Of a stretch of 64,000 nucleotides of DNA, positions 1,197 through 20,709 are shown piece by piece. The translations under genes were made by a program, and so were the position numbers. The notes under the pieces were generated by a model, which did not search any database, was not told where the DNA came from, and worked only from the letters and a program-made list of their open reading frames with translations. The DNA is from Rhodobacteraceae bacterium Alg231-30 (GTDB taxonomy: Bacteria; Pseudomonadota; Alphaproteobacteria; Rhodobacterales; Rhodobacteraceae): the NCBI GenBank assembly GCA_900143615.1, contig FREU01000002.1, forward strand, positions 166,663 through 230,662. Reading direction: 5' to 3'. The number at the start of each line of letters is the position of its first letter. Positions within the stretch are counted from its first letter, which is position 1.

Positions 1197-2531
1197 TTAA
1201 AGCGCAAGCCCACGTGCCAGTTCATTTTGCCGCTGCACAGTCGCAGCAAGATCAATGGTTGTCACTTGACCGTCTCGCACAACCTGACGCCCCTCAACGA
1301 ACAGATCACGAACGGTCGTGGGCCCTGCCAATAAAATGGCGGCAGGATCCCAACTTCCTGCGCTTTGCACGCCACTGACATCCCAAATTGCAATATCAGC
1401 ACGCTTGCCCACAGCAATTTGTCCACAATCAGGGCGTCCAAGAACTTGGGCGCCGCCACGTGTTGCGATCTCCAAAGCCTCTCGCGCACTCATGGCATCT
1501 GCCCCTTGCGCGACGCGCTGCAACAACATCGCCTGCCGCGCTTCTAGAACCAAATTGCCCGCATCATTGCTCGCCGATCCGTCTACCCCCAGCCCCACCG
1601 GGACGCCAAGATCACGCATCTTGCGGACTGGCGCGATCCCACTGCCCAAGCGACAGTTTGAGCAGGGGCAATGCGCCACACCAGTGCCTGTCTTTGCAAA
1701 CAACTCCATTTCCGAAGAATCCAGCTTAACGCAATGTGCATGCCACACATCGGACCCAACCCACCCCAATTCCTCGGCGTATTGCCCGGGACGACAACCA
1801 AAGTTCTCAAGAGAGTATGCAATGTCCTCCTCGTTCTCTGCCAAATGAGTGTGTAACATGACGCCCTTATCGCGAGCGAGAATAGCCGCATCACGCATCA
1901 AATCACGGGTCACTGAAAACGGTGAGCACGGAGCGACCCCAACCCGAACCATCGCGCCCTCACGAGGGTCGTGATAGCGGTCAACCAACCGGATCGCATC
2001 TTCAAGAATTGCAGCCTCCTGTTCGACCAAACTGTCAGGCGGCAGCCCCCCTGCGCTTTCACCGATACTCATTGCACCACGGGTTGGATGAAACCGCATG
2101 CCGACTGCGCGCGCCGCATCAATTGTATCATCTAGCCGCGACCCATTTGGGTAAAGATAGAGATGGTCAGACGTAAGTGTGCATCCCGACAGTGCCAATT
2201 CCGCCAATCCGACCTGTGCGGAGACCCGCATTTCTTCCGGCCCGAACTTTGACCAAATGGGATACAGCGTTTTAAGCCACCCAAACAGCAATGCGTCTTG
2301 CCCACCTGGCACCGCGCGGGTCAACGTCTGATAGAGATGATGATGGGTGTTCACCAACCCAGGGGTAACAACACAGCCTGCGGCCAAAACCTCTTCACCG
2401 ATGGTTTCAAGGTTTTCACCGATCTCGACAATCTGACCACCACGAATACGAATATCACATCCCGCCAGCTCTCGACGGGTATCATCCATTGTCACGATGG
2501 TTTGAGCGGATTTTATGAGTGTCTCTTGCAC
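1197..2531 (-). CDS. 8-oxoguanine deaminase-like amidohydrolase
   Basis: A 444-residue metal-dependent amidohydrolase of the guanine deaminase/AtzB branch. Visible motifs are VNTHHH near the N-terminus (HxH metal ligands), HTHLAE mid-protein, HAHC, and the GVDGSASND aspartate loop. This pattern and the PGLVNTHHHLYQTLTRA context match the family deaminating 8-oxoguanine to urate, a salvage or detoxification step. Hydroxyatrazine- or guanine-type substrates cannot be excluded. I chose the GTG at 2529-2531 because AAAGGA sits five bases upstream. A longer frame to 2636 exists but adds a Cys-rich tail unlike the family. It stands alone, with the HisN-like gene upstream on the same strand. Confidence 0.82.
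   Translation of the reverse strand: MQETLIKSAQTIVTMDDTRRELAGCDIRIRGGQIVEIGENLETIGEEVLAAGCVVTPGLVNTHHHLYQTLTRAVPGGQDALLFGWLKTLYPIWSKFGPEEMRVSAQVGLAELALSGCTLTSDHLYLYPNGSRLDDTIDAARAVGMRFHPTRGAMSIGESAGGLPPDSLVEQEAAILEDAIRLVDRYHDPREGAMVRVGVAPCSPFSVTRDLMRDAAILARDKGVMLHTHLAENEEDIAYSLENFGCRPGQYAEELGWVGSDVWHAHCVKLDSSEMELFAKTGTGVAHCPCSNCRLGSGIAPVRKMRDLGVPVGLGVDGSASNDAGNLVLEARQAMLLQRVAQGADAMSAREALEIATRGGAQVLGRPDCGQIAVGKRADIAIWDVSGVQSAGSWDPAAILLAGPTTVRDLFVEGRQVVRDGQVTTIDLAATVQRQNELARGLAL

Positions 2532-15310: not shown

Positions 15311-15311
<1 letters not shown>
14574..15311 (-). CDS. Exported FG-GAP/VCBS-like repeat protein
   Basis: 245 residues with a signal peptide (MRAAVLFALFFAPIAQA). Two calcium-type repeats are visible: DLDGDGAPEVVV and DLDGDGLVELAY, the DxDxDG loop of FG-GAP/VCBS beta-propeller blades. 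A CPSCA cysteine pair lies near residue 58 and further cysteines near the C-terminus. It is probably periplasmic and of unknown role. Its ATG overlaps the ferredoxin stop (TGATG), so it is co-transcribed and translationally coupled to that ferredoxin. Confidence 0.78.
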
Positions 15312-15652
<341 letters not shown>

Positions 15653-15742
15653 CTAATTTCCGTTCATACCTAATAAACGACTGCCACTGCTTCCAGCCCC
15701 TTTTGCGACCTCAGCTTTATCAAGTTGCGACAAAGTTGACAT

Positions 15743-15757
15743 GTTCTCTATTTGTTC
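15743..15757 (+). promoter_or_regulatory. Alphaproteobacterial LexA (SOS) box
   Basis: GTTC at 15743-15746 and GTTC at 15754-15757 separated by seven bases match the GTTC-N7-GTTC operator bound by LexA in Alphaproteobacteria. The site lies 13 bases before the ATG of the DnaE2-tail frame and overlaps the region where its promoter must be; a TATAAA-like element follows at once. Confidence 0.75.
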
Positions 15758-15769
15758 TATATAAAAATC

Positions 15770-16126
15770 ATGCATTCAACCCCCATCAACAATTGGCCGC
15801 GTCCGCCGGCGGCCCTTGCCGCAACACAACTTTGCTTGCCCCCGAATGGGGCGCGGGTCACCGTGGCTGGGCTCGTCATTCTACGCCAACGGCCCGGAAC
15901 CGCCAAAGGCGTGATTTTTGTGACGCTTGAGGACGAAACCGGCGTGGTCAACGTCATCGTTTGGCGCTCTATGTATGAAAAATTTCGCCGGGCCGTTATC
16001 GCGGGACGCCTGCTGCGTGTGACTGGCCGCATTCAACGAGAAGGTAGTGTCACCCATCTGATTGCAGACCATGTCGAGGACATATCACCTCTACTCGACC
16101 AGCTTACCGCACCACACGTCAGCTGA
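15770..16126 (+). CDS. C-terminal OB-fold segment of error-prone DNA polymerase DnaE2 (ImuC), stand-alone
   Basis: 118 residues. From about residue 27 the sequence (ARVTVAGLVILRQRPGTAKG, VIFVTLEDETGVVNVIVW, FRRAVIAGRLLRVTGRIQREG) matches the C-terminal OB domain of DnaE2, the SOS-induced translesion polymerase of imuA-imuB-dnaE2 cassettes. The polymerase, PHP and finger domains are absent, and no imuA or imuB lies beside it. The ATG is only 13 bases from the LexA box and has no ribosome binding site, so a leaderless transcript is possible. Two readings fit: a relic left by deletion of the cassette, or a retained small SOS-regulated nucleic-acid-binding protein. The frame is intact, favouring some retention. 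Confidence 0.7.
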   Translation: MHSTPINNWPRPPAALAATQLCLPPNGARVTVAGLVILRQRPGTAKGVIFVTLEDETGVVNVIVWRSMYEKFRRAVIAGRLLRVTGRIQREGSVTHLIADHVEDISPLLDQLTAPHVS

Positions 16127-19575: not shown

Positions 19576-20709
19576 TCAGTTGTCCCCCGAATTCTTGCGA
19601 AGTTCGTTTAGCGGCAGATAGGGCACAACACCGTTGCTGCCTCCGGTTTGATCATCAATGATCACCTTGTCGATACCACCCAGAACTTCTTCCATGGTTT
19701 CCAGATACAGACGTTTGCGCGTCACTTCCGGAGCCTTCTTATACTCTGTCAAAACCGCACTAAAGCGGCTGGCTTCACCTTCAGCTTCGTTCACAACCCG
19801 TGCACGATAGCCTTCAGACTCTTCCAAAACCTGCGCAGCTTCACCACGTGCACCCGCCAGAACACGGTTGGCATAAGCATCAGCTTGCTTTTCCAAACGG
19901 TCACGTTCTTGGCTTGCGGACTGCACTTCGCGGAATGCGTCTTTTACAGACTCGGGGGGATCGGCACCGTCAAAGTTCACTCGCACGACATTCACGCCCG
20001 AGTTGTAACTATCCAGAGTTTCCTGAATGAGCTCCAGCAGACGATCCGTAATGATACCACGATCACGGTTCAGCACCGGCGCAAGCTCGGACTGTGCCAT
20101 GATCTCGCGCATCGCCGATTCCGACACCGCGCGAATGGTTTCTTTGGGGTCACGCAGGTTGAACAGGTACTGAGCTGGATCATTGATGTTCCAAACGACT
20201 TGGAAATCGATGTCCACGATGTTCTCATCACCTGTCAGCATCAGGCCATCACCTGTCCGCGAGGGAATTTCTTCCGTTTGCTCGTTAGTCACCGGGACAA
20301 CTTCTGCTGTCACAAGTGGCCAAGGCGCAAAGTTCAGACCTGGTTCACCAGTTGCGGAGTATTTGCCCAAAAACAGTTCAACCGATTTTTCTTCCGGTTT
20401 GACTGTGTAAAAGCTCGCCATGCCCCACATGACCGCAGCAACAGCCAGACCAATGCCGACTGTGCCTTTTGTAATGCCAGGACCGCCGCTGCTGCCGCCT
20501 TCGCCGCCGCTATTGCGTCCGCCGCCGTCGCCACCGCGACCGCCCATCAAAACGCGCAGTTGGTCCTGACCTTTTTTCATGAGGTCATCGATATCGGGGA
20601 TTTGCGGTCCATCACCTTCGGGTGGACGTCGTCCATCACCGTTGTTGCCGCGATTTCCGCCGCCTTGATTGCCGCCCCCTCCCCAGGGGCCGCCGTTATT
20701 GCCTGCCAT
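19576..20709 (-). CDS. hflK: FtsH protease modulator HflK
   Basis: 377 residues. A Gly/Asn-rich cytoplasmic N-terminus (first 80 residues, several GGG runs) precedes one membrane helix (GTVGIGLAVAAVMWGMASFY) and an SPFH domain (VKPEEKSVELFLGKYSATGEPGLNF), followed by a coiled coil. It pairs with HflC to control FtsH. ATG at 20707-20709 has AAGGA upstream. It is the first gene of the hflK-hflC-DUF2065 unit. Confidence 0.95.
   Translation of the reverse strand: MAGNNGGPWGGGGNQGGGNRGNNGDGRRPPEGDGPQIPDIDDLMKKGQDQLRVLMGGRGGDGGGRNSGGEGGSSGGPGITKGTVGIGLAVAAVMWGMASFYTVKPEEKSVELFLGKYSATGEPGLNFAPWPLVTAEVVPVTNEQTEEIPSRTGDGLMLTGDENIVDIDFQVVWNINDPAQYLFNLRDPKETIRAVSESAMREIMAQSELAPVLNRDRGIITDRLLELIQETLDSYNSGVNVVRVNFDGADPPESVKDAFREVQSASQERDRLEKQADAYANRVLAGARGEAAQVLEESEGYRARVVNEAEGEASRFSAVLTEYKKAPEVTRKRLYLETMEEVLGGIDKVIIDDQTGGSNGVVPYLPLNELRKNSGDN

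Follow-up and report, generated by a model that had tools for sequence, protein, structure and literature searches.

Many marine bacteria of the Rhodobacter family appear, as judged from sequence, to have an error-prone DNA polymerase, DnaE2, that was divided during evolution, with its C-terminal OB tail now encoded by a gene of its own which is probably controlled by DNA damage. We consider it quite likely that this OB gene was born by fission, that its product is a separately SOS-controlled DnaE2 subunit acting in trans, and that it has been kept since an ancestor within Rhodobacteraceae. If so, the view that such DnaE2 enzymes merely lack the OB domain would have to be revised, and a dispersed, multi-promoter form would be added to the catalogue of mutasomes. 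Moreover, as OB is a separate protein in these bacteria, its part in translesion synthesis is open to test through deletion of a single small gene.

The gene lies in a stretch of 64,000 nucleotides, referred to here as the window. An exact GTTC-N7-GTTC sequence, GTTCTCTATTTGTTC, read as a LexA-type box, occupies positions 15743-15757 of the plus strand, and an intact frame of 118 codons runs on the same strand from the ATG at 15770 to the TGA at 16126. Both the perfect operator and the intact frame of the original prediction were thus recovered, but the gap between them is 12 bases and not the 13 that it gave. Its claim that the frame resembles only the C-terminal OB segment of DnaE2 was borne out by profile searches: residues 16-113 correspond to positions 943-1040 (of 1047) of PRK05672, the NCBIfam DnaE2 profile, with E of 3.6e-32, and to no other part of it, while residues 30-105, the OB-fold core (15857-16084, plus strand), match the Pfam OB fold tRNA_anti-codon (E 4.4e-13). 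With 111 bits for PRK05672 against 33 bits for the best DnaE1 profile, the OB part of DnaE2 is preferred; this score is below the whole-protein cut-off of PRK05672, as expected for a single domain. A PDB search with the window protein alone returned DNA polymerase III alpha at E 0.31, ranked under an unrelated-looking designed protein (0.032), the remaining matches being weak. Ahead of the core, codons 9-13 (15794-15808, plus strand) encode the motif WPRPP, which we regard as a remnant of the linker between polymerase body and OB domain and as a possible docking peptide.

No polymerase or imu gene was present among the frames within a few kb of the OB gene. Its divergent upstream neighbour (15311-15634, minus strand) is a 2Fe-2S ferredoxin gene (Pfam Fer2), used here as a synteny marker and standing outside the proposed mechanism, and the product of the downstream gene shows a peptidoglycan-binding match below threshold. 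In 79 of 80 related loci (L036-L115, the exception being L074) this ferredoxin gene precedes OB, its distance to the OB match being 380-1,505 bases, and the OB locus is therefore old and common to the relatives. Among named relatives the closest are Shimia, and the window is probably from this genus as well. A comparison with relatives had been proposed in search of a full imuA-imuB-dnaE2 at this locus; what it gave was a separate OB gene beside ferredoxin in these loci, and one-piece DnaE2 in other genomes.

The statement that there is no polymerase body, imuA or imuB holds for this neighbourhood and fails for the genome as regards the polymerase body and ImuB. Searched with the DnaE2 profile, the genome yielded the window gene itself (on C9), the replicative DnaE1 and, on contig C7, a DnaE2 body (profile 6-938), three matches in all. 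The body, of 970 aa, covers positions 7-938 of the 1047 of PRK05672 at 1220 bits (cut-off 939 bits), carries the PHP, NTPase, finger and HHH_6, i.e. (HhH)2, domains, and terminates 11 residues past RLTLRQHPVALLR. It has no tRNA_anti-codon (OB) match, which in the one-piece control from Shimia (G009) is found at 1052-1125. Together, the body (to 938) and the window protein (943-1040) tile the DnaE2 profile with almost no overlap. PDIDVDF, which we take to be the active-site motif of the DnaE2 body, is present in all 51 split bodies compared. The ImuB gene of the genome is at C10:264641-266287 (locus L186); its product matches the ImuB of G009 in two pieces (51% and 45% identity) and contains Pfam IMS and IMS_C, with no NCBIfam match at 1e-20. 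The three loci, OB on C9, body on C7 and imuB on C10, are thus unlinked and do not form one LexA-controlled cassette, and imuA was not detected beside the split loci examined (tblastn, E up to 1e-5). The most economical role for the OB protein would therefore be that of the missing domain of the DnaE2 of its own genome, supplied in trans; the proposal of a short SOS-controlled OB protein stands as far as a kept gene with an SOS-type box is concerned, and yields to this more economical reading in its "role of its own".

The truncated body and the separate OB gene occur together. Among 33 genomes (25 Shimia and 8 other family members), a truncated body goes with a separate OB gene in 21, DnaE2 is in one piece and unaccompanied by a separate OB in 9, and 3 (G006, G020 and G024) have neither. 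One of the nine, G033, was scored as one-piece since its "orphan" OB starts at base 6 of contig C2 (217,585 bp) and its body lies at the other end, which suggests that a circle was opened inside dnaE2. A one-piece DnaE2 with adjoining imuB, and in several cases also imuA, was seen in the same genus or family in G009, G026, G033, G034 and others. We also looked at 50 named genomes, picked for a stand-alone OB out of 80 found with one. In 47 of them the DnaE2 match ends at profile positions 937-953; in G477 it reaches 970, crossing three stop codons, and in G468 and G484 it ends at 819 and 810, respectively. No one-piece DnaE2 is among the matches listed for these 50. On a broader scale, among 394 genus representatives, 148 of the best 150 OB matches are in frames no longer than 520 residues (G323 and G365, with OB inside long one-piece frames, were removed), and 129 genomes are common to these 148 and to the best 150 split-like bodies, as compared to 56 expected; this body list ranks similarity to the last 300 residues of the body, truncation itself having been read in the other sets.

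The exceptions in this broad set are mostly draft or incomplete genomes, so that gaps or recent losses are possible. Fifteen of the 21 genomes found on the body list alone have a lower-ranked OB match, and no OB match was found in six draft genomes with a body (G092, G112, G146, G190, G210 and G228). Similarly, 13 of the 19 genomes on the OB list alone have a lower-ranked match to the last 300 residues of the body; as to the rest, the only match of G369 is a one-piece one, short contigs with body fragments account for G109 and G166, and the search found no DnaE2 body in G099 (7 contigs, 100% complete), G370 (94% complete) and G406 (77% complete), all three of which have OB and ImuB. OB and imuB of G099 (loci L242 and L241) each have an exact GTTC-N7-GTTC upstream, the OB box having been read by eye. 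G369 (71% complete) has a one-piece DnaE2 together with a separate OB, and the search of it found no truncated body. A one-piece DnaE2 also stands alongside the split set in G083 and G339, and in G284 (loci L244 and L245) the split-type body is decayed, the OB frame is intact, and the genome also has an ImuB homologue and a one-piece DnaE2. The presence of one-piece DnaE2 in the same genus and family, and on Rhodobacterales plasmids, suggests that the split set has been replaced by transfer.

The trees are consistent with an origin of the split within the family. With 94 bodies (51 split, 43 one-piece) the tree requires two changes of state, and in a tree of 38 rows the 24 split rows form one clade (support 100/99) which takes in one row from a one-piece enzyme (L226 of G339); a constraint that keeps L226 out of the split rows gives a borderline AU p of 0.049. 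L226 (C88:8613-11831) is a one-piece enzyme whose body is within the split clade and whose OB domain groups elsewhere, on a long branch, and it is possibly a re-fusion with a foreign OB domain. The OB tree, built from too few columns, requires two changes with 94 rows and one with 38 rows (support 67/74). Two one-piece enzymes, L224 (G323) and L229 (G365), together form the sister group of the split clade (100/98). In L229 a single chain runs from a body end of split type (LRARLTPPG) through APWPRPPACL into the OB domain and finishes with SRDFH. Every one of the 51 split OB proteins carries W-x-x-P-P in its opening part (45 WPRPP, 3 WPKPP, and one each of WPHPP, WHRPP and WPQPP), and WP[RK]PP is found in none of 43 one-piece DnaE2 in the 60 residues preceding OB; L229, examined afterwards, is outside that set. 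As this one-piece sister carries WPRPP, we rejected the idea that the motif was invented by the split form. The linker stretch from LTPPG to WPRPP is, on this evidence, the probable site of the fission. The C-terminal end RDFH or RNFH is nearly invariant in one-piece enzymes (40 of 43), and none of the 51 split OB proteins or 51 split bodies contains RDFH.

A search for fission outside the family, at the level of the class, covered 337 genomes, of which 154 had a match; no convincing stand-alone OB was seen among the best 150 matches listed, the short frames lying mostly near contig starts by their coordinates. Candidates for independent fission in G763 and G525 were rejected as broken genes, a decayed cassette and a frame break, respectively, and G660, with a frame of 650 aa, was left out. 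No plasmid-borne stand-alone OB was seen among the 40 plasmid records listed out of 833; where a named feature lies under the match, it is an error-prone DNA polymerase, and five of the listed records are unannotated and two have no feature at that place.

The evidence for SOS control comes from the same loci. The window holds three exact GTTC-N7-GTTC sequences against 2.1 expected by chance, and the box alone is thus not significant; the further two matches, at 1299-1313 (minus strand) and 20332-20346 (plus strand), are at chance level in number. However, an exact box is present just upstream in 99 of 101 stand-alone OB loci, a set that counts some genomes twice (exceptions L100 and L101), with the start codon 1-3 nt 3' of it in 89 of the 101, and it is this conservation that makes the window box meaningful. 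Random 250-nt windows of loci L036-L115 contain a box in 89 of 4000 cases (2.2%). When the OB loci are aligned, TTG or TGG stands at -18 to -16, a -10-like TATATTT mostly falls within the N7 of the box, and ATG is at +17 in about 73%. The N7 of the window box reads TCTATTT, and a -35-like TTGCGA at 15725-15730 aligns with the TTG of the relatives. About 11 bases further downstream there is a second set, TTGACA-N16-TATATA-N6-ATG, formed by the -35-like hexamer at 15736-15741 and, 16 nt from it, the -10-like hexamer at 15758-15763 (both on the plus strand), with the start codon 6 nt on. A consensus promoter scan listed no plus-strand promoter; the latter pair escaped it because TATATA breaks the last-T rule of the scan. 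By eye, no Shine-Dalgarno sequence precedes the OB ATG, in agreement with the original prediction of a missing ribosome binding site. As the ATG stands at the expected start of transcription for the promoter sets of the relatives and of the window alike, the OB mRNA is probably leaderless.

Related boxes are found at the other two loci. Fifty-three split-type bodies had upstream sequence (four of them from genomes in which OB was not found): 10 have an exact box, 41 a one-mismatch form and 2 neither. The one-mismatch form is GAAC-N7-GAAT, whose final base starts a TATAAT-like element, and this is what the body of the window's own genome carries; in L171, one of the 10 with an exact box, that box is at another position and the usual position holds the one-mismatch form. 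Shuffled upstream regions of bodies gave the exact or the one-mismatch form in 21 of 2650 cases. An exact box precedes 11 of 12 imuB genes from split or nearby genomes, including the own imuB, and in two Shimia genomes (G005 and G013) imuB lies next to the body in divergent orientation, the two having one exact box in common. The main text of an in-silico study of LexA targets in Dinoroseobacter (PMC6473078) contains neither "dnaE" nor "imu", which is uninformative either way.

Several other explanations have to be weighed against this one. If the box were there by chance, the OB gene would be outside SOS control, as the window count of 3 versus 2.1 would allow; considering that 99 of 101 loci have the box, 89 of them with the start codon 1-3 nt on, as opposed to 2.2% of random windows, and that body and imuB carry related boxes, we rejected this reading as very improbable. 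The original prediction also put forward that an internal deletion had joined the promoter of an imuA-imuB-dnaE2 cassette to the tail of dnaE2, and a box directly before a DnaE2 tail is indeed what such a deletion would leave. Yet the same layout, with ferredoxin upstream, extends across many genera, the missing body is present elsewhere in the genome, and the OB core is under strong purifying selection (median dN/dS 0.066, maximum 0.15, in 136 pairs from 17 Shimia copies). A deletion scar was thus rejected as well, and its probability seems to us close to negligible.

A more serious alternative, although still an unlikely one, is that the OB domain has left DnaE2 and become a small SOS-induced protein that binds some other partner, be it ImuB, the replicative DnaE1 or single-stranded DNA by itself, with the truncated DnaE2 working OB-less. 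It would account for the three genomes that keep OB and ImuB with no DnaE2 body found and for the six with a body and no OB match, and the passages seen of a 2013 survey describe several DnaE2 enzymes without an OB domain (PMC3919608). On the other hand, co-occurrence is clean in the 33 genomes, and the exceptions, as said above, are mostly incomplete genomes in which gaps or recent losses are possible. Furthermore, co-evolution of OB with the body exceeds that of the body with the neighbour of the OB gene: over 50 genomes, pairwise distances correlate at 0.79 for body and OB and at 0.53 for body and ferredoxin, and the partial correlation of body and OB is 0.73 (permutation p 0.001, ferredoxin being the sole control gene). 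Between this alternative and the subunit acting in trans one may place the idea that OB is an exchangeable, separately switched part, error-prone synthesis requiring joint derepression of the three unlinked LexA loci as in an AND gate, and free OB also working independently of DnaE2, with ImuB or with the replicative polymerase. Such DnaE2-independent work is hinted at by G099, G370 and G406, and we regard the whole idea as rather doubtful, if somewhat less so than an OB protein with other partners only.

For the preferred reading, a trans-acting subunit of DnaE2, we propose the following course of events. Inactivation of LexA upon DNA damage would derepress the unlinked OB, body and imuB loci together, and the leaderless mRNA would give the small OB protein. 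This free protein would then dock on the DnaE2 body and restore the full polymerase, perhaps by means of its N-terminal WPRPP peptide, a guess made from conservation; binding of OB to the body is what we infer here. OB domains of DnaE enzymes bind the template strand. The docked OB protein could thus supply the template-strand binding otherwise given by the tethered OB of an ordinary DnaE, and OB, body and ImuB would together rebuild a translesion polymerase from pieces. Published models place the contacts between DnaE2 and ImuB on the PHP and (HhH)2 regions (PMC12926913, in the passages seen); as both are kept in the split body, binding of ImuB need not involve OB.

The arrangement resembles the LexA-controlled ImuA-ImuB-DnaE2 mutasome, with Mycobacterium tuberculosis as the model, in its DnaE2-family polymerase, ImuB homologue and LexA-type boxes, but differs from it in that DnaE2 is made as two proteins by genes that are not linked, imuB occupies a third locus in this genome, and the search beside the split loci gave no imuA. 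The "split cassette" of mycobacteria is a different matter, as there imuA'-imuB is apart from dnaE2 and the polymerase itself is unsplit, according to the parts seen of PMC10421592 and PMC6511836. Also comparable are the stand-alone ImuB-C proteins, the stand-alone mutasome domain named in the survey passages (PMC6511836, PMC12926913), in which a single domain of a mutasome protein is likewise encoded by its own gene; that domain is the C-terminal one of ImuB, whereas in the split genomes it is the OB domain of the polymerase. A C-family polymerase in two pieces is also found in the intein-split enzymes of cyanobacteria, as described in the passages seen of PMC3919608. The stretch from the RLTLxxHP motif to the C-terminus is 19-94 residues long in 50 of 51 split bodies (one is without the motif pattern), which, given intein sizes from general knowledge, is too short for an intein half and a linker in most of them. 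It is by protein splicing that the pieces of the cyanobacterial polymerases are rejoined.

The one-piece imuA-imuB-dnaE2 cassettes of Rhodobacterales, of which the one on the 126-kb plasmid of Dinoroseobacter shibae is an example (PMC9426580, seen in part), have the OB domain in one chain with the polymerase, and the RDFH/RNFH tail common in one-piece enzymes is missing from the split set. The D. shibae enzyme belongs to the same polymerase family and comes from the same bacterial family, its OB domain being 73% identical to residues 28-115 of the window protein. Nor is the dispersed layout universal in the family, since imuB and dnaE2 of Phaeobacter inhibens are reported as one operon in the part seen of PMC10883770. 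The passages searched in surveys from 2013 (PMC3919608), 2019 (PMC6511836) and 2026 (PMC12926913) make no mention of a stand-alone DnaE2 OB gene. According to the first of these, the OB domain is detected in no fewer than 97% of C-family polymerases, within the polymerase chain. The 2026 survey distinguishes 11 mutasome types, and "OB domain", "OB-fold" and "Rhodobacter" do not occur in its main text, as accessed. No title listed by the literature searches concerns such a gene, and prior notice elsewhere is possible.

A minor observation concerns ImuB of the split genomes. It aligns to the query in two parts, which are separated in L186 by about 37 additional residues, and the open frames are mostly longer (about 540-690 aa) than the query ImuB of 487 residues.
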